Virus record (IMG/VR): IMGVR_UViG_3300030116_005478
Coordinates: 1 to 32,630 of that record
DNA length: 32,630 nt
Origin: a virus
Direction: 5' to 3' (one strand)
Shown here: in pieces, positions 879 to 32,370 of the stretch
How the letters are laid out: every line of letters begins with the position of its first letter
Position numbering within the stretch: position 1 is the stretch's first letter
The notes under the pieces: model-generated
Told to the model about the DNA's origin: nothing
Seen by the model: only the letters and a program-made list of their open reading frames with translations
The model's database searches: none
Program-made: the position numbers and the translations under genes

Positions 879-1799
879 ATGGTACAACAAGTAACCCAAG
901 TAACGAGTGAAATACCTGAGGTATTAGAACCTTATTTTACGGGCGACCCCGATGCAGGTATAACAGGCATAATGCCGAAAGCCCAAGAACTATTTGGGAA
1001 AGGTTTTGATCAAGTATACGGAGCAGGAGCGCAGTCTCTTATGGGTCTCGGTGGTATTGCTCCAATGTCAGCCTCACAGCAAGAACTTGGTAGGCAAATA
1101 GCAGGACTAGAAGCGCCGGGAGCATTTACTACAGCACAACAGGCTCAAGAAGCAGGTATTCAAGGCTTATTGGCAGCGCCCGGAAGGTTTGATTCAGCGG
1201 CAGCTCAAGCTTATATGTCACCGTTTATGGAAAATGTTGTTGACATAGAACAAAGAAAAGCAATTGATGCTGCAAAGAAAGCTCAACTGGATGCTAACTT
1301 AGCGTCAGCTAGACAAGGCACGTACGGTGGCGCAAGACAAGCTCTTTTAACAGGGGCTAGAGAATCAGGGCTTAGAACGCAACTTGGTGATATACGATCT
1401 AGAGGTTTACAAGCAGCTTTTGAAAATGCTCAAAAACAGTTTGGAGCAGATCGTGCTGCACAGATAGCAGCAGCTCAAGGATTAGGTACACTGGGACAAC
1501 AACAAGGAGCATTAGGAGTTCAACAACAAGCAGCAGAACTAGACCGACTCAAAACACTCGGTGCGTTTGGAGACTTAGAAAGAGCTATAATGCAAGAAGG
1601 CCTAAGCGCAGAAGGCGCATTTCAAAGACGTAGAGACGAGTTTGGACAACAGCAACTAGGTAACCTTGCAAACATCTTGCGTGGTGTACCAACAACAGAC
1701 ACAACACAAACAACTGCAGTGCCTCCACCAAGCTTTGCATCACAACTAACAGGTCTTGGTATTACAGGTCTAAGTTTAGCTAAATTATTAGGGGGTTAA
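879..1799 (+). CDS. Ala/Gln-rich virion-associated protein (306 aa)
   Basis: The ATG at 879 follows an SD-like AGAGGAAAAG. The protein is almost wholly alpha-helical in character, with many Ala, Gln and Gly. Around residues 108-114 it has AYMSPFMENVVD, followed by a helical repeat-like region (SARQGTYGGARQALLTGARESG). The C-terminal third is Gln-rich (GQQQGALGVQQQAAELDRL, then FQRRRDEFGQQQLGNL), and the protein ends in a Gly/Leu-rich tail. I recall the 'YMSPFMxNVVD' and 'GGARQA' patterns from marine phage structural modules, where these proteins lack an assigned function. No signal peptide, catalytic motif or transmembrane segment is evident. It could be an internal or ejected head protein or a neck/tail component. 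The next gene starts 2 nt after its stop. Confidence 0.65.
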   Translation: MVQQVTQVTSEIPEVLEPYFTGDPDAGITGIMPKAQELFGKGFDQVYGAGAQSLMGLGGIAPMSASQQELGRQIAGLEAPGAFTTAQQAQEAGIQGLLAAPGRFDSAAAQAYMSPFMENVVDIEQRKAIDAAKKAQLDANLASARQGTYGGARQALLTGARESGLRTQLGDIRSRGLQAAFENAQKQFGADRAAQIAAAQGLGTLGQQQGALGVQQQAAELDRLKTLGAFGDLERAIMQEGLSAEGAFQRRRDEFGQQQLGNLANILRGVPTTDTTQTTAVPPPSFASQLTGLGITGLSLAKLLGG

Positions 1800-14523: not shown

Positions 14524-14574
14524 ATACTACAACCTACTTTATACATTGTCAATCATCTTCTAAAATATTTTTAT
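14524..14574 (-). promoter_or_regulatory. Leftward sigma70-type promoter with UP element
   Basis: On the minus strand TTGACA (14547-14552) and TAGTAT (14524-14529) are separated by exactly 17 bp. Directly upstream, 14562-14572 reads AAAAATATTTT, which fits the distal core of the E. coli UP-element consensus (AAAWWTWTTTT) at every position; the proximal AAA box is AGA. The SNF2 stop codon TGA is nucleotides 2-4 of the -35 box. The promoter would drive the GTG-started gene, SSB-like protein, HTH and primase-helicase. No right-end palindrome lies near it. Confidence 0.65.
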
Positions 14575-18918: not shown

Positions 18919-19138
18919 CTCGGACAATCGAATAAAAGTTCGTAGGTTTCTTAGAGTTTCTAAGTGCGTGTGTATATCGAACATAGATGATATTATGTTC
19001 TAACAAAATCGGCAAGTACCTTCTGATACTTCTTACACTTAATTTTAATCTTCGTGCTAACTGCTTTACAGACAATGCGTAGTTTCTTTCTAAACATCGA
19101 AACACTTGCAACTGTCTACTCGTATGCGGTCTCCTCAT
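18896..19138 (-). CDS. Winged-helix/HTH DNA-binding protein (80 aa)
   Basis: The segment ALSVKQLARRLKLSVRSIRRYL (about residues 21-43) is a helix-turn-helix with recognition helix VRSIRRYL, followed by a helix-wing pattern (PILLEHNIIYVRYTHALRN) as in winged-helix regulators. The reading frame begins with GTG-ATG at 19141-19136; AAGGAG stands eight nt before the ATG at 19138, so that start is used, though GTG is possible. It overlaps the VRR-NUC gene upstream by 23 nt and the polymerase gene downstream by 23 nt, placing it in a tightly coupled cluster. A regulatory or origin-binding role is inferred; the target site is unknown. Confidence 0.65.
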   Translation of the reverse strand: MRRPHTSRQLQVFRCLERNYALSVKQLARRLKLSVRSIRRYLPILLEHNIIYVRYTHALRNSKKPTNFYSIVRDADNNRL

Positions 19139-19436
19139 CACGTATACTCCTTAACATATACTCCACATCACTTATGTTGTTTTCATTAACTATCATAGCC
19201 ATACCACCTGCGCTCATGATGTCGGACAAGTTCTTGCTCTGTAAAGCCGTGGGTTGGTTTCCTTTTGCTTTACATTCGATACCAAAAAATATACCACGAT
19301 AACAACCAACGATATCAGGCACACCACTTCTACCGTAACCACCTGTCATAGGATAGAAATAGTATGCCTTGTGTTCTTTCAGTATCGCTACTACTTTATT
19401 TTTAACTTTCTTCTCAGGTGTCATCGGGTGATTCAT
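19116..19436 (-). CDS. VRR-NUC domain nuclease (106 aa)
   Basis: It is a compact single-domain VRR-NUC enzyme of the PD-(D/E)XK superfamily. The catalytic pattern is visible: GYGRSGVPDIVG (Asp41), then FGIECKAKGNQPT (Glu54 and Lys56), then a Q-x-x-x-L-type helix (ALQSKNLSDIMSAGG). Length is typical of phage VRR-NUC proteins, which in related families act as structure-specific nucleases, including Holliday-junction resolvases. The start is uncertain: ATG at 19436 (inside the upstream gene, 23-nt overlap, poor SD) or ATG at 19424 preceded by GGGATGAA. It lies among polymerase and helicase genes, fitting branched-DNA resolution during replication or packaging. Confidence 0.88.
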   Translation of the reverse strand: MNHPMTPEKKVKNKVVAILKEHKAYYFYPMTGGYGRSGVPDIVGCYRGIFFGIECKAKGNQPTALQSKNLSDIMSAGGMAMIVNENNISDVEYMLRSIRDEETAYE

Positions 19437-20088
19437 CCCATAGACTATAATCCCATGACCCTTTTTTTATAATGTCTTTTAGTTCTTTTTCTTTTTTCCT
19501 AACCAATTCAGTTGTTGACATACCAAGAGATAAACCTTTTCTTTGAAGTTTTCTTTTTATTTCATCTAATGACTTCTTCCCTAGTGATGGTATATGTAAT
19601 ATTTCATTTTCAGTACGTTGGACTAAATCAAGAATGGTATGAATACCCTCTTTGTATAACGCTTTTGCTGGTCTACGTGAGTCAAAGTGAAGGACAGACC
19701 CTATTTGTCTTGAAAGCAAAGGGTCGTATTTTAAAGTTGACTCTCTTCGTTGTTTCATACCATCTACTATATGTGTATGTAACCCATCAATAATTTCATT
19801 AATCAAAGGGTCCATTAAAATTTTAGTTTCAAAAGTAAACTTATGCTTAAACATAGCTTTTTCAATTTGCTTGATAGATATGTCGTTAATATTTGGCACA
19901 CAATGTAATAGTTGCTTTGGTGAAAATTGTACTAAGTCTCCGATATAAAAAATACCATAAGCTTTTAACGAATTGTTTATTCTAACCGATAAACCTAGAC
20001 TATCTATTGGTATCAAATAATGACCTGCAGGTCTATTCGATTCTTCGTAAATTTTTTCTCGTAATTTTTGTTTTTTATTCATAGCCAT
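19414..20088 (-). CDS. Tandem RNA polymerase alphaCTD-like protein (224 aa)
   Basis: Two copies of the RNA polymerase alpha C-terminal DNA-binding domain stand in one chain, with no alpha N-terminal domain. Domain 1 (about 26-80; SVRINNSLKAYGIFYIGDLV) and domain 2 (about 121-190; DLVQRTENEILHIPSLGKKS, then GLSLGM) both resemble E. coli alphaCTD; domain 2 is nearly identical over the second half. By E. coli numbering, domain 1 keeps R265 (R36), N268 (N39) and S299 (S71) but has Asn at G296 and Ile at K298. Domain 2 keeps R265 (R139), G296, K298, S299 and E302 (170-176) but has Lys at N268. Residues 81-120 link the domains, and a charged tail follows. It probably binds UP-like DNA or partners of host RNA polymerase; activator, decoy or inhibitor roles are all possible. 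SD is GGGGGTGGGTT before 20088. Confidence 0.88.
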   Translation of the reverse strand: MAMNKKQKLREKIYEESNRPAGHYLIPIDSLGLSVRINNSLKAYGIFYIGDLVQFSPKQLLHCVPNINDISIKQIEKAMFKHKFTFETKILMDPLINEIIDGLHTHIVDGMKQRRESTLKYDPLLSRQIGSVLHFDSRRPAKALYKEGIHTILDLVQRTENEILHIPSLGKKSLDEIKRKLQRKGLSLGMSTTELVRKKEKELKDIIKKGSWDYSLWDESPDDT

Positions 20089-20098
20089 AACCCACCCC

Positions 20099-20356
20099 CT
20101 ATTTTTCTAAGTGTTCAATTAAATACGACAATACGTGATGCGCTTTTTTAATGTCTTGTAGTCCACCCTTACCTTCGATGTCTTTAACATTAACTCGTGA
20201 TAAATAATGAATCGTTGTACCGAGTAGGTAGCCTTTGAATTGCGCCGGGGAAAGCCAAGACTTCAACACCTCCCAAGGTGTTATTGTAAGATTGGTATAG
20301 TGCGAACCACCAACTTGCTTGTCTCCTGCTTTTTCTTCCTTGTCTTTAAATATCAT
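20099..20356 (-). CDS. DUF3310 (SaV-like) protein (85 aa)
   Basis: The pattern GGSHYTNLTITPWEVL, then FKGYLLGTTIHYLSRV, then LQDIKKAHHVLSYL matches the short phage family DUF3310, whose core is 'HY..I.P.E...... F..GN.IKYl.R...K....Dl.KA..Yl'. It has sometimes been annotated as a nucleotide kinase-like SaV protein; its biochemical role is not settled. The ATG at 20356 is chosen because AAGGAG lies six nt before it, whereas the ATG at 20362 abuts the SD. It overlaps the upstream 60-aa gene by 11 nt, so expression is coupled. Confidence 0.85.
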   Translation of the reverse strand: MIFKDKEEKAGDKQVGGSHYTNLTITPWEVLKSWLSPAQFKGYLLGTTIHYLSRVNVKDIEGKGGLQDIKKAHHVLSYLIEHLEK

Positions 20357-20528
20357 CACCATCTCCTTCTAGTTGTTCAAACTTTCTAACTATAAGCTTT
20401 TTTACAAAATCTTTCATAACGAACCTGTATCCTAACTGTTCAAGTTCTTCTGAAAACTCAGCCACGGACATACTTAAAATCTCCTCGTGTAGCCTTTCTA
20501 TAATTTCTTGATTTGCATCATTGCTCAT
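20346..20528 (-). CDS. Small acidic helical protein (60 aa)
   Basis: I do not recognise this protein. It is acidic and helical (EIIERLHEEILSMSVAEFSEELEQLGYRFV), with a short basic stretch (MKDFVKKLIVRKFEQL) and an acidic tail (EGDGDD). The ATG at 20528 follows AAGGAGCGAAC. It overlaps the glycosyltransferase gene by 11 nt and the DUF3310 gene by 11 nt, so it is clearly part of the operon. Function unknown. Confidence 0.6.
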   Translation of the reverse strand: MSNDANQEIIERLHEEILSMSVAEFSEELEQLGYRFVMKDFVKKLIVRKFEQLEGDGDDI

Positions 20529-26772: not shown

Positions 26773-28032
26773 TTAAACTTCTACATCTACGTGAACACTC
26801 GTGCCATTGTCTGCTTGGATATACTTGTCGGTAATACCCCAGAAGACAGGACAGTTCCAACCACTACCCCAGTTCGGTACATGACCATCTGTGAACATAA
26901 TGACTGACTGTGGTCTCATCTTGTTGTCGTTTATGTACTTGGATACACACGATGGGTCAGTACAACCACCACCTGCGACTTTTGTAGATGCGATTAGATT
27001 TTCTAGTTCGCTTTGTTGATACGTTTCGACAGGCGTGTAAACATCTCCGTCCCAGTACATCAAGTCAATCTTCTCTGGTGCAATGTCCTTACAGATAGCG
27101 GATATCTCTCCGAGGAACGCAGATATTTCTTCCTGAGTAACCGAGCCTGATGTATCTACACCAATCACAATCGGCCCTGCGTTTTCACTAACAAGAGATG
27201 GCATGATGATGTCCTGTGAAACCCACCTACGGTTTGGTTTGCGCCACGAGGAAACATCTTTACGTGAGTTGTAATTACTGATGAATGACCGGAGCATATC
27301 TCGCCAGTTAATCTTAGGCTCAAGTATCTCTGTCACACTTCTCGCTACCTTTGCTGACACCATCTCCGCATATGCTTTACCTTGTCGCAATGCTTCTTCG
27401 ATGCGTTGGTCTAGTGCTTCCTGTGCGTTGGGGTCATCAGACCTTGCTTTCGCTTCTTCCCACATATGGTCATCAAGTGTCTGTCCTTTACTGCTACCGC
27501 TTTGGTCTTGGTCACCCTGTTCAGAGTCACCACTAGTGGCTTCTCCATCTCCTCCTCCTCGTTTAGATTTACTGCCGTTGAAGATATCATCGAATATCTT
27601 TTTAGTATCCAACACTCGACCATATTGGTAATACTTGTCGTCACATACTCCACCCTCGATAGGCTCTAAGAACTTCTCCGATGGGTCTATCTCGTACTTC
27701 ATTGTGAGATTAATGACATTGTCAGTAGCCAGATTGGTAGACATAGCGCACTTAAGAAACAAGGCTCTCCATACTGTCATATGCTTGAACGCCACGTGCA
27801 TGACCTCGTGCATAATCAAGTACCGCAACTGTGCATCAGTAAGTTTGCGTATGAACTCGATGTTGAGATAAACATTCAAACCATCAGTCGCACCTGTTTT
27901 TATCTTGTGGTCTTTGTCTACTGCATGAAACAGACACATCATAATCACAGCGGAAAACATGACCGTACGTGGGTCATTCATCAATACGACTTTCTGTTTG
28001 GTTATTCTTCTAATAGCTTGTTGCTTTGTCAT
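26773..28032 (-). CDS. Metallopeptidase-like/VWA protein, CobT-like (419 aa)
   Basis: It combines an N-terminal zincin-like metallopeptidase region and a C-terminal von Willebrand A-like domain, as in the DUF2201/VWA-like group. HEVMHVAFKH at 75-84 is an HExxH zinc motif; GVDTSGSV at 291-298 is a MIDAS DxSGS; and VIMFTDGHVPNWG near the C-terminus completes the VWA fold. A Gly/Ser/Asp-rich linker (about 157-190) joins the halves. It is encoded with a MoxR-type AAA+ ATPase (29023-30141), and this pairing is well known from MoxR-VWA and CobS/CobT chaperone-like complexes that remodel protein or insert metal. The ATG at 28032 is preceded by AAAGGAGAAGTT. The real substrate in this phage is unknown. 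Confidence 0.85.
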   Translation of the reverse strand: MTKQQAIRRITKQKVVLMNDPRTVMFSAVIMMCLFHAVDKDHKIKTGATDGLNVYLNIEFIRKLTDAQLRYLIMHEVMHVAFKHMTVWRALFLKCAMSTNLATDNVINLTMKYEIDPSEKFLEPIEGGVCDDKYYQYGRVLDTKKIFDDIFNGSKSKRGGGDGEATSGDSEQGDQDQSGSSKGQTLDDHMWEEAKARSDDPNAQEALDQRIEEALRQGKAYAEMVSAKVARSVTEILEPKINWRDMLRSFISNYNSRKDVSSWRKPNRRWVSQDIIMPSLVSENAGPIVIGVDTSGSVTQEEISAFLGEISAICKDIAPEKIDLMYWDGDVYTPVETYQQSELENLIASTKVAGGGCTDPSCVSKYINDNKMRPQSVIMFTDGHVPNWGSGWNCPVFWGITDKYIQADNGTSVHVDVEV

Positions 28033-28997: not shown

Positions 28998-29018
28998 TGT
29001 AGAAGTCAGACTTCTACA
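28998..29018. repeat. Palindrome copy 1 (after MoxR gene)
   Basis: Arms TGTAGAAGTC and its reverse complement flank a single A. It begins four nt after the MoxR stop. On the minus strand it is followed by ATTTTTT, so this copy also has the form of an intrinsic terminator or attenuator between the MoxR and 307-aa genes. Confidence 0.9.
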
Positions 29019-29022
29019 CAGA

Positions 29023-30141
29023 TTACTTAGTGAAAATCCAATTCATCTCCATTGCACGTTTCTGGAACGTGTCGTTGTCGATTGCGATTTCCTGCTTCTT
29101 ACTACTCATGATTGACCGATAGAATACAGCTTCCCACTCGTCCTTGAACTTGTCACGCATCATGTACTGACACAATGCTGTGAGTGTATCCTCTGCTGTT
29201 GTGACAATAGCTTTAGTCATCAACATACATTGAACCATCGTATCTTCAGGGATAGGTGCGGTCTTAGGATTAGATAACAGATTACCCCAGTCTGGTAACT
29301 TGTAACCCATCTTGACCTCGGTCATCAGGTCTACACCACTAAGCGTACCAATTGCGCCACACAGAGATGCGGTCAACTCTTCCTCATCTAGTTTGTCGTT
29401 CGCTTTGATGATGTCACTCGCCGCTTCAAGTGTGTACGGACACACAAACATATCTGTGCTAGGTTCTCTGCTTGGGTTGAAAATACGCTTACTGTCAGAC
29501 CCATCTAGGTATGACTCCAAACAGTCAGGATGATTACGCACAAACATAATGACCTCTGGTGCAATATCATTATCCAACGCATACTCCATCCAACTATCAG
29601 GCTCGACAAACTCCTTGCCATTCTCATCTACACCAATACCTGCGTGTGGCTTACGTACCAACACCTTTATAGTACGTCTACGTTGATGAGCCTTGAGTGT
29701 GTCCATCAATCCATCACTCGCACAGTTTGTAGTGGCAAACACTAGCGAACCCTCTGGCAGATAATTCATACCTTGTCTACGTTCTTGGAGGATTGGTAGT
29801 ATGCCGTTGAGTGTACCCTGCGGTGCTTTACCCAACTCATCAAACATAATTAACTGTGGCTTGTCGTCCTGAAAACCCAACAAATGATTTGGTGCAAATA
29901 CTGTGACGTGCATACCATTCATCTCAATGACACGTGGCATTTGAATGTCACCCACATCTAGCGTAGTACAGTCAATAATGTTGTATCCCATCTTGTCGCC
30001 ATAGTAATTCATTAGCGAATAAAAGATAGCAGACTTACCAATACCTGTCTCGCCTTCGAACAAAAACGTACGCTCATGACCCAATACTTTGATTAGGTTA
30101 CTCGCACCACGCAAACTTACAGAATGATTGTATCCAATCAT
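29023..30141 (-). CDS. MoxR/CobS-like AAA+ ATPase (372 aa)
   Basis: It is a MoxR-type AAA+ ATPase. Walker A is GETGIGKS (30-37), Walker B is LIMFDE (97-102) and sensor 1 is ATTN (136-139); the segment after Walker B (LGKAPQGTLNGILPILQERR) is characteristic of MoxR/CobS proteins. C-terminal helices match a lid domain. These ATPases usually act with a VWA-domain partner, here encoded two genes downstream. The ATG at 30141 has AAGGAGAGTCAA upstream. A strong promoter (30210-30238) and palindrome copy 2 lie in its leader, so the triad can be controlled separately from the small genes to its right. Confidence 0.88.
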   Translation of the reverse strand: MIGYNHSVSLRGASNLIKVLGHERTFLFEGETGIGKSAIFYSLMNYYGDKMGYNIIDCTTLDVGDIQMPRVIEMNGMHVTVFAPNHLLGFQDDKPQLIMFDELGKAPQGTLNGILPILQERRQGMNYLPEGSLVFATTNCASDGLMDTLKAHQRRRTIKVLVRKPHAGIGVDENGKEFVEPDSWMEYALDNDIAPEVIMFVRNHPDCLESYLDGSDSKRIFNPSREPSTDMFVCPYTLEAASDIIKANDKLDEEELTASLCGAIGTLSGVDLMTEVKMGYKLPDWGNLLSNPKTAPIPEDTMVQCMLMTKAIVTTAEDTLTALCQYMMRDKFKDEWEAVFYRSIMSSKKQEIAIDNDTFQKRAMEMNWIFTK

Positions 30142-30170: not shown

Positions 30171-30190
30171 TGTAGAAGTCGACTTCTACA
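30171..30190. repeat. Palindrome copy 2 (MoxR leader)
   Basis: A perfect 20-bp palindrome, arms TGTAGAAGTC and its complement, with no central base. On the minus strand it is followed at once by TTTTTT. It begins about 13 nt after the predicted transcription start of the promoter at 30210-30238, so it is placed to act as an operator or as a leader attenuator. Confidence 0.9.
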
Positions 30191-31329: not shown

Positions 31330-31400
31330 AATGCTCTCCTTCGAATAAAAATAAATAAAAACAAATTGACACAAACAGAGTGTCGATGAACACTTAGGTC

Positions 31401-31418
31401 GTAGAAGTCGACTTCTAC
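31401..31418. repeat. Palindrome copy 3 (upstream of first leftward gene)
   Basis: A perfect 18-bp palindrome GTAGAAGTC/GACTTCTAC with no central base; the outermost T of the left arm is C here, and CAC follows the right arm as in most copies. It lies in the leader region about 70 nt before the first leftward gene and has no T-run after it on the minus strand. Confidence 0.9.
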
Positions 31419-31428
31419 ACGTGGACAC

Positions 31429-31970: not shown

Positions 31971-32327
31971 TGTTCCAAGCGTTCCAAGTTTGTTCCACCC
32001 TACGGAACGATAGTTTTGTCATATATATCATGAGGTTACGTGCGATAGTGTCAGCCTGTTCCGCTGTTCCACCCTAATACAAACACCTGCCGAGAGGGTC
32101 GAATGAAGAGTTTCAACCACGACATCTTTGATACCAGTTATGGGAGGTCGTTCGTATATGTTACCTTTTACAATAATAATAATAATAATAATAATAATAT
32201 CTTTTAGAATCAAAAACTTAGGTGCAAAAAAGTCTGTTCCACCTCTGGAACGCACGTAAACTTTCTTCAATAATATCAAGTGCTTAGAGTGTTCCACAAT
32301 CTGGAACAGGCTGGAACAGCTGGAACA
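31971..32327. repeat. Array of twelve GTTCCA/TGGAAC motifs
   Basis: The hexamer-heptamer (T)GTTCCA or its complement occurs about twelve times in 357 bp. Forward sites begin at 31971, 31981, 31991, 32057 (variant GTTCCG), 32065, 32235 and 32290; reverse sites at 32004 (variant CGGAACG), 32246, 32302, 32312 and 32321. Two clusters of three are spaced 9-11 bp apart, near one helical turn. Three face-to-face pairs occur (31991/32004, 32235/32246, 32290/32302). It resembles an iteron or operator array. Confidence 0.85.
32172..32198 (+). repeat. (AAT)9 microsatellite
   Basis: Nine perfect AAT units lie inside the GTTCCA array. The run is wholly A/T and easily melted; beside repeated protein-binding sites it is a candidate DNA-unwinding element of an origin. 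Confidence 0.95.
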
Positions 32328-32348: not shown

Positions 32349-32370
32349 GTGTAGAAGTCGACTTCTACAC
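32349..32370. repeat. Palindrome copy 6
   Basis: A perfect 22-bp palindrome: the common 20-bp core without a central base plus a flanking G-C pair. It lies 22 bp after the last TGGAAC repeat. Together with copy 7 it brackets a 45-bp AT-rich segment that contains TATAAT (32395-32400, plus strand) and TATAAA (32393-32398, minus strand). Confidence 0.9.

Follow-up and report, generated by a model that had tools for sequence, protein, structure and literature searches.

Phage proteins aimed at the function of the C-terminal domain of the host RNA polymerase alpha subunit (alphaCTD) include Alt and ModA of T4 and Rac of phiKMV-like phages (PMC2988021, PMC7552054). Alt and ModA modify R265, a residue crucial for UP elements and for CRP, and polymerase treated with ModA loses UP and CRP contact (PMC2988021); Rac-dependent cleavage removes the alphaCTD (PMC7552054). 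These proteins act as enzymes, modifying alpha or bringing about its cleavage, and none of them is an alphaCTD homologue. The second alphaCTD surface of interest, the 287 determinant, is the contact for CRP AR1 in E. coli and is complete in Gammaproteobacteria only (PMC12531629).

Other phages encode the domain itself. Bacillus phage vB_BmeM-Goe8, a member of the Herelleviridae that is not related to the phage described here, carries gp005/gp073 (YP_009849950, YP_009850177) near both genome ends; the product is annotated as 'RNA polymerase subunit alpha' and consists of a single alphaCTD (PF03118, 4e-22) that lacks the alpha N-terminal domain (NTD) and stands behind an unrelated N-terminal region. 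In Ruegeria phage vB_RpoS-V16, gp23 (AWY09459) likewise has an alphaCTD and no alpha NTD, with the single domain forming the N-terminus of a 288-aa protein. We found no description of free phage alphaCTDs in the open-access literature searched.

Here we describe a phage protein with two alphaCTDs in one chain, encoded in a 32,630-nucleotide stretch of DNA that we refer to as the window. The gene and its parts are as follows:

19414..20088, minus strand: tandem alphaCTD protein, an open reading frame of 224 aa with an ATG start (ORF list and Pfam)
19819..20016, minus strand: domain 1, aa 25-90, predicted alphaCTD fold (alignment, structure model, residues)
19729..19818, minus strand: linker, aa 91-120, predicted to be helical at low confidence (structure model)
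19516..19728, minus strand: domain 2, aa 121-191, with an RpoA-type DPxLxR lead-in and GLSLGM end (alignment, structure, residues)
19651..19701, minus strand: hypervariable block, aa 130-146 (17 residues), lying over the 261/265 region of domain 2 (identity comparison)
19417..19515, minus strand: C-terminal tail, aa 192-224, ending in KDIIKKGSWDYSLWDESPDDT and truncated in contig L005 (alignment)

The start codon is preceded by AGGGGGTGGGTTATG. The sequence-only reading of this gene had proposed two tandem alphaCTDs without an alpha NTD, and profile searches bear this out. The alphaCTD family PF03118 (RNA_pol_A_CTD) matches the 224-aa protein at 1.8e-27 (95.3 bits, cut-off 23.8), and a separate search places two matches, at 19852-20022 and 19543-19680, each over the cut-off in its own right. 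No alpha NTD is present in the protein, and the NCBIfam rpoA models match it by their CTD part only, far below cut-off. Aligned with E. coli alphaCTD, domain 1 scores 101 and domain 2 scores 153, compared with maxima of 42 and 47, respectively, over 200 shuffles, and the top PDB sequence matches are E. coli and related alphaCTDs (best E value 3.6e-13, domain 2). The match to the helix-hairpin-helix (HhH) family HHH_5 is far weaker than that to PF03118, and Pfam reports no ADP-ribosyltransferase or acetyltransferase domain of the T4 Alt/ModA or Rac type. Domain 2 also matches NCBIfam PRK07758, a short, single-domain cellular protein of 95 positions, at 38 bits, far below the family cut-off.

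Structure models agree with this assignment: compared by Foldseek with crystal and cryo-EM structures of E. coli alphaCTD, both predicted domains match at TM 0.85-0.89. The domain 1 model (pLDDT 89), built together with 15 further alphaCTD sequences taken from phage loci, superposes on E. coli alphaCTD at TM 0.89 and 0.8 A (8y5t) and TM 0.88 and 1.1 A (1lb2_E). Domain 2, modeled at a pLDDT of about 75-89 within the whole protein, matches the E. coli alphaCTD bound to CAP and DNA (3n4m_C, TM 0.88, 1.0 A). The whole-protein model, made from four relatives, has a pTM of 0.42 and is too weak for the relative placement of the two domains.

The phage domains thus share with the RpoA CTD its fold, its helix order and most of its core residues, domain 2 having in addition the RpoA lead-in and end motifs given above; they differ from it in lacking the NTD, in being present twice per chain, and in dividing the DNA-contacting and activator-contacting faces between the two copies. 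RpoA is a closer match to either domain than the two domains are to one another (the tree itself is weak), as would be expected of a host-derived mimic. Domain 2 is closest to RpoA of Gamma- and Betaproteobacteria (37 of 69 residues identical in E. coli), which suggests such an RpoA as its source; this speaks to the source only and does not settle the host.

In E. coli alphaCTD, residues R265, N268, G296, K298, S299 and E302 contact UP-element DNA. In the window, domain 1 has R265, N268 and S299, and domain 2 has R265, G296, K298, S299 and E302. To see which of these are held, we compared the four distinct full alleles available (the window, identical to L001; L002, identical to L003; L004; and L005, identical to L006). 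Domain 1 invariantly keeps R265 (R36), N268 (N39), K271 and S299; it has lost C269 and the GKK residues G296 and K298, and E302 is also missing in three of the four alleles. Its 287 patch is gone (E286 to P/S, V287 to K, E288 to Q, G315 to E), as are its sigma-contacting 261 residues (E261 to G), which domain 2 keeps in part. In domain 2, T285, E286, E288, G315, E273 and the GKK residues G296 and K298 are invariant, and two positions of the 287 patch are unlike E. coli (V287 is N, R317 is S). C269 is absent from domain 2, N268 is replaced in all four alleles (K/D/D/D), and R265 is present in the window only, the other three having I, I or A. The full 265 determinant (R265, N268, C269, G296, K298, S299, E302) is therefore found in neither domain alone.

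Of the DNA face, domain 1 retains the first half; domain 2 retains most of the activator-contact face. The split of UP-contacting residues described in the sequence-only reading is thus correct for the window, but its domain 2 R265 is allele-specific. Because domain 2 lacks R265 in three of the four alleles, and R265 and N268 are invariant in domain 1 only, the notion of a single full DNA face formed jointly by both domains is weakened; the conservation of domain 2 points instead to the activator-contacting (287) surface. The loss of G296 and K298 from domain 1 means that its UP affinity may be weak. A function in contacting DNA or activators is plausible from sequence, modeled structure and residue conservation, and the redirection or blocking of host polymerase that had been proposed would fit with it.

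The R265 of domain 2 in the window depends on a 2-aa insertion within the hypervariable block, which is part of what the alignment identifies as the DNA/sigma face of that domain. The block is only 13-27% identical in amino acids to every relative, and the 50-nt window 19650-19699 is about 50% identical in nucleotides to every relative, with flanking 50-nt windows mostly at 72-100%. An origin by frameshift was considered and rejected, as other frames restore no similarity.

The tandem form occurs in seven other IMG/VR contigs: an identical ORF in L001 and relatives in L002-L006 and L016. One of these contigs is cut such that domain 2 alone remains. Of 45 PolA relatives whose contigs extend 1.5 kb or more upstream of polA, six have the tandem gene, three a single alphaCTD and 36 neither in the available stretch. 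Immediately ahead of the SNF2 helicase gene, cousin phages L161, L162 and L166 have a single alphaCTD gene distinct from the tandem one, a form found in seven contigs; it keeps R265, N268, C269 and S299 but not K298, a pattern near that of domain 1. It is located as follows:

L161 8354-8644; L162; L166 8229-8540; L212-L218: single alphaCTD gene of cousin phages

Beyond these, free alphaCTDs are encoded in unrelated phages (L021/L024/L032/L048/L059/L105/L112, L065/L068, L096, L107, L110, L047 and L039), as well as in Goe8 and Ruegeria V16. The single alphaCTDs of the uncultivated phages (L021/L024/L112, L065, L096, L107, L110 and L161/L162/L166) also lack an NTD but have one domain, and the L021, L024, L065, L096 and L107 proteins combine R265, N268 and GKKS in that single domain. 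A further phage protein, encoded at 1032-1772 (minus strand) of L083, fuses sigma-70 region 4 (8e-15) to an alphaCTD (2e-23). Salmonella and Acinetobacter 'phage' records also gave RpoA matches; these were set aside, being near-identical to host rpoA and taken to be ordinary bacterial genes. As to a bacterial source or a cellular tandem form, two scans of bacterial genome contigs, using exact short-peptide patterns only, gave no relative. The free double alphaCTD had been called unusual; the free alphaCTD is a recurring feature of phages and so is not unique to this one, but the doubled form was seen solely in the present group.

The tandem gene sits in a slot within a gene order common to the relatives (GT, DUF3310, slot, nuclease, HTH, PolA, Cas4-like, SNF2), flanked as follows:

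20099..20362, minus strand: upstream gene, DUF3310 (PF11753; Pfam)
19116..19436, minus strand: downstream gene, Hjc-like nuclease (weak Pfam match; start probably at 19424, judging by the empty site)
19425..20100, minus strand: cassette as delimited by comparison with the empty site of L129, with the junction ambiguous by 2 nt

In L129, a 60 kb contig, the slot is empty: the missing piece measures 676 nt, and the DUF3310 stop overlaps the nuclease start as ATGA. L129 and the window are otherwise close (PolA 93%, DUF3310 98% and nuclease 96% identical, neighbours mostly 90-98%), and PF03118 has no match anywhere else in the L129 contig. In L132-L134, close kin of L002, the slot is occupied by an unrelated ORF of 217-237 aa, to which Pfam assigns no function:

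L132 1542-2195; L133 505-1218; L134 3464-4177: unrelated slot ORF

Its agreement with the tandem gene is limited to the first few residues, MAMNK. A faint alphaCTD likeness of this ORF, seen by eye, was rejected after profile comparison gave a probability of 1-3% and Pfam found nothing.

Exchange of the gene between lineages is indicated by fourfold-degenerate sites. Between the window and L002, 53 of 56 such sites are identical in the tandem gene, compared with 60 of 148 in polA and 71 of 162 in SNF2 (Fisher ~1e-13 and ~1e-12, respectively); a lesser yet distinct excess is seen against L005 (37/46 vs 90/166, p 0.001), and none against L004, the genome-wide sister. The N-terminal and domain 1 part is identical to L002 at 24 of 24 fourfold sites, and its amino acid identity is 92-98% to L002 and L004 and 82% to L005, with polA down to 69%. 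This excess implies that the gene moves between phage lineages, most clearly for its N-terminal and domain 1 part. We conclude that it is an accessory, mobile and dispensable cassette, a property that was not part of the sequence-only reading.

The transcriptional setting was examined at the following promoter:

14524..14574, minus strand: sigma70-type promoter TTGACA-17-TAGTAT with the near-consensus UP element ATAAAAATATTTTAGAAGATGA (13/14; motif match)

The UP element, at 14553-14574, lies directly 5' of the promoter hexamers. The UP consensus is nnAAAWWTWTTTTnnnAAAnnn, and a 13/14 match to it is reached at 9 of ~45,000 positions, and the element, already pointed to in the sequence-only reading, is real as judged from its match and its position. 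TTGACA with a -10-like hexamer is also present in L004/L016 and L002 and is lost in L005; the UP element lies partly within the coding end of SNF2, and its conservation in relatives may be due in part to coding constraint. Strong sigma70-like promoters are found at 14552, 30238 and 31943 (minus strand), and promoter-like sites overall in the window are not above chance. Six related contigs of 43-60 kb contain neither a T7-type RNA polymerase (PF00940 search, in which the T7 positive control was detected) nor a sigma region 4. The phage probably uses the host polymerase throughout, which argues against a total shut-off of that enzyme and for a biasing of it.

Several other features of the window were observed. 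A perfect 20-bp palindrome, TGTAGAAGTCGACTTCTACA, occurs three times (30171-30190, 31400-31419 and 32350-32369; one copy with 1 mismatch), as against 0 of 100 shuffles, with a one-base-longer variant at 28998-29018. All copies are located close to where the minus-strand gene cluster begins, one of them just downstream of a strong promoter (30238-30210), and this family is a probable phage operator or terminator; it was not found in the relatives' contigs searched. The gene at 26773-28032 belongs to PHROG 1314, named 'HNH endonuclease', but Pfam finds a DUF2201 metallopeptidase-like and a VWA-like domain, so that the PHROG name is probably wrong; an AAA ATPase is encoded nearby (29023-30141). 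A run of AAT trinucleotide repeats (32167-32250) lies in a doubtful ORF near the contig end, and Rfam found nothing in the window. The source phage is marine. Its replication genes (10084-30141) are distant kin of those of Pseudomonas phage Rollin, KPP25-like phages and Rhizobium RHph_TM phages (PolA 31-35%, primase-helicase 26-27% identity) and have no near relative among GenBank phages.

Taken together, we tentatively favor a reading in which the tandem alphaCTD is a polymerase-free mimic of the alphaCTD pair of RNA polymerase that modifies host transcription, most likely as a decoy for UP DNA or activators. Lacking an NTD, the protein cannot enter polymerase in the usual way, which makes decoy the most likely action. 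Domain 1 would contact DNA via its invariant R265 and N268, and domain 2 would present the activator-facing surface of a gamma- or betaproteobacterial alphaCTD (T285, E286, E288, G315, E273). The protein may thereby occupy UP-type (AT-rich promoter) DNA, alphaCTD-binding host activators, or both, such that UP- and activator-dependent host transcription would be lowered and host polymerase freed for the phage. We infer each of these elements, namely DNA binding, activator binding, decoy action, benefit to the phage and timing, the last from the place of the gene in the replication-gene strand. The partition of surfaces between the two domains, held across alleles, speaks for a decoy, as does the existence of phage precedents that attack alphaCTD (T4 Alt/ModA, Rac), although these are enzymes rather than homologues. 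The alphaCTD fold of both domains, the closeness of domain 2 to gamma/beta RpoA, the cassette behaviour and exchange of the gene, the single alphaCTD of the cousins and the finding of no T7-type polymerase or sigma region 4 in the six relatives count in its favor as well. Against it, the phage's own UP-type promoter would also be affected by a UP-DNA decoy, the 287 patch of domain 2 is not identical to that of E. coli, domain 1 is without G296 and K298 and so may have weak UP affinity, the allele comparison covers four distinct full alleles only, and the gene lies among replication genes, in no obvious host-takeover region. A broader version, that phages have repeatedly captured the RpoA alphaCTD as a stand-alone weapon, with one copy here holding promoter DNA, the other holding host activators, and the variable block adjusted to different hosts, is doubtful.

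The complementary surfaces could also serve activation of phage transcription, with one domain on phage promoter DNA and the other holding a host activator or polymerase factor. The apparent use of sigma70-type promoters of the host, one of which carries an almost perfect UP element, and the lack of a T7-type polymerase or sigma factor in the six relatives would suit such a recruiter. L129, however, does without the protein even though its neighbours, including the gene below the UP promoter, are mostly >90% identical, so its promoters work without it, and the 261 residues for sigma contact are not kept in domain 1 and only partly in domain 2; we consider this reading unlikely. We also rate as unlikely an antagonist of host defence or of another host factor unrelated to polymerase, in which the alphaCTD scaffold would act as a sponge and the variable block would stem from an arms race. 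A slot shared with other genes, transfer between lineages and a surface block that is hypervariable are what one usually sees in host-interaction genes, and BREX PglW has a weakly matching domain; that match (E 2e-4) covers the HhH part only, no substantial match to a defence family was found, and a variable block in the alphaCTD DNA/sigma face is compatible with a transcription role too. It is improbable that the protein has lost its transcription role and, as a double HhH DNA-binding protein, aids the adjacent nuclease, PolA or helicase: DNA binding is common among HhH folds, and the gene stands in the replication cluster directly before the Hjc-like nuclease, HTH protein and PolA, but it is cleanly absent from L129, where those genes stay 93-96% identical, and domain 2 keeps activator-face residues specific to alphaCTD beyond those of HhH folds, and the HHH_5 match is much the weaker one. 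A functionless captured rpoA fragment, decaying or neutral, is very improbable: each domain has lost some classic alphaCTD residues and the gene is dispensable, but no complete copy has an interrupted ORF, the N-terminal region with domain 1 is better conserved than polA, and both the invariant surfaces particular to each domain and the exchange between lineages point to selection.

Known phage attacks on alphaCTD act by modification or removal, and a free doubled alphaCTD would instead be a homologous competitor. The tandem protein offers a natural separation of the alphaCTD DNA and activator surfaces onto two domains, and the window and L129 form a clean natural plus/minus phage pair for the role of the gene. 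Free alphaCTDs of phages are currently annotated as 'RNA polymerase subunit alpha', as HTH proteins or not at all, and their recurrence in unrelated phages suggests a general strategy. If true, the reading in which the two copies split these surfaces between them would represent a homologous-decoy route to transcriptional takeover.
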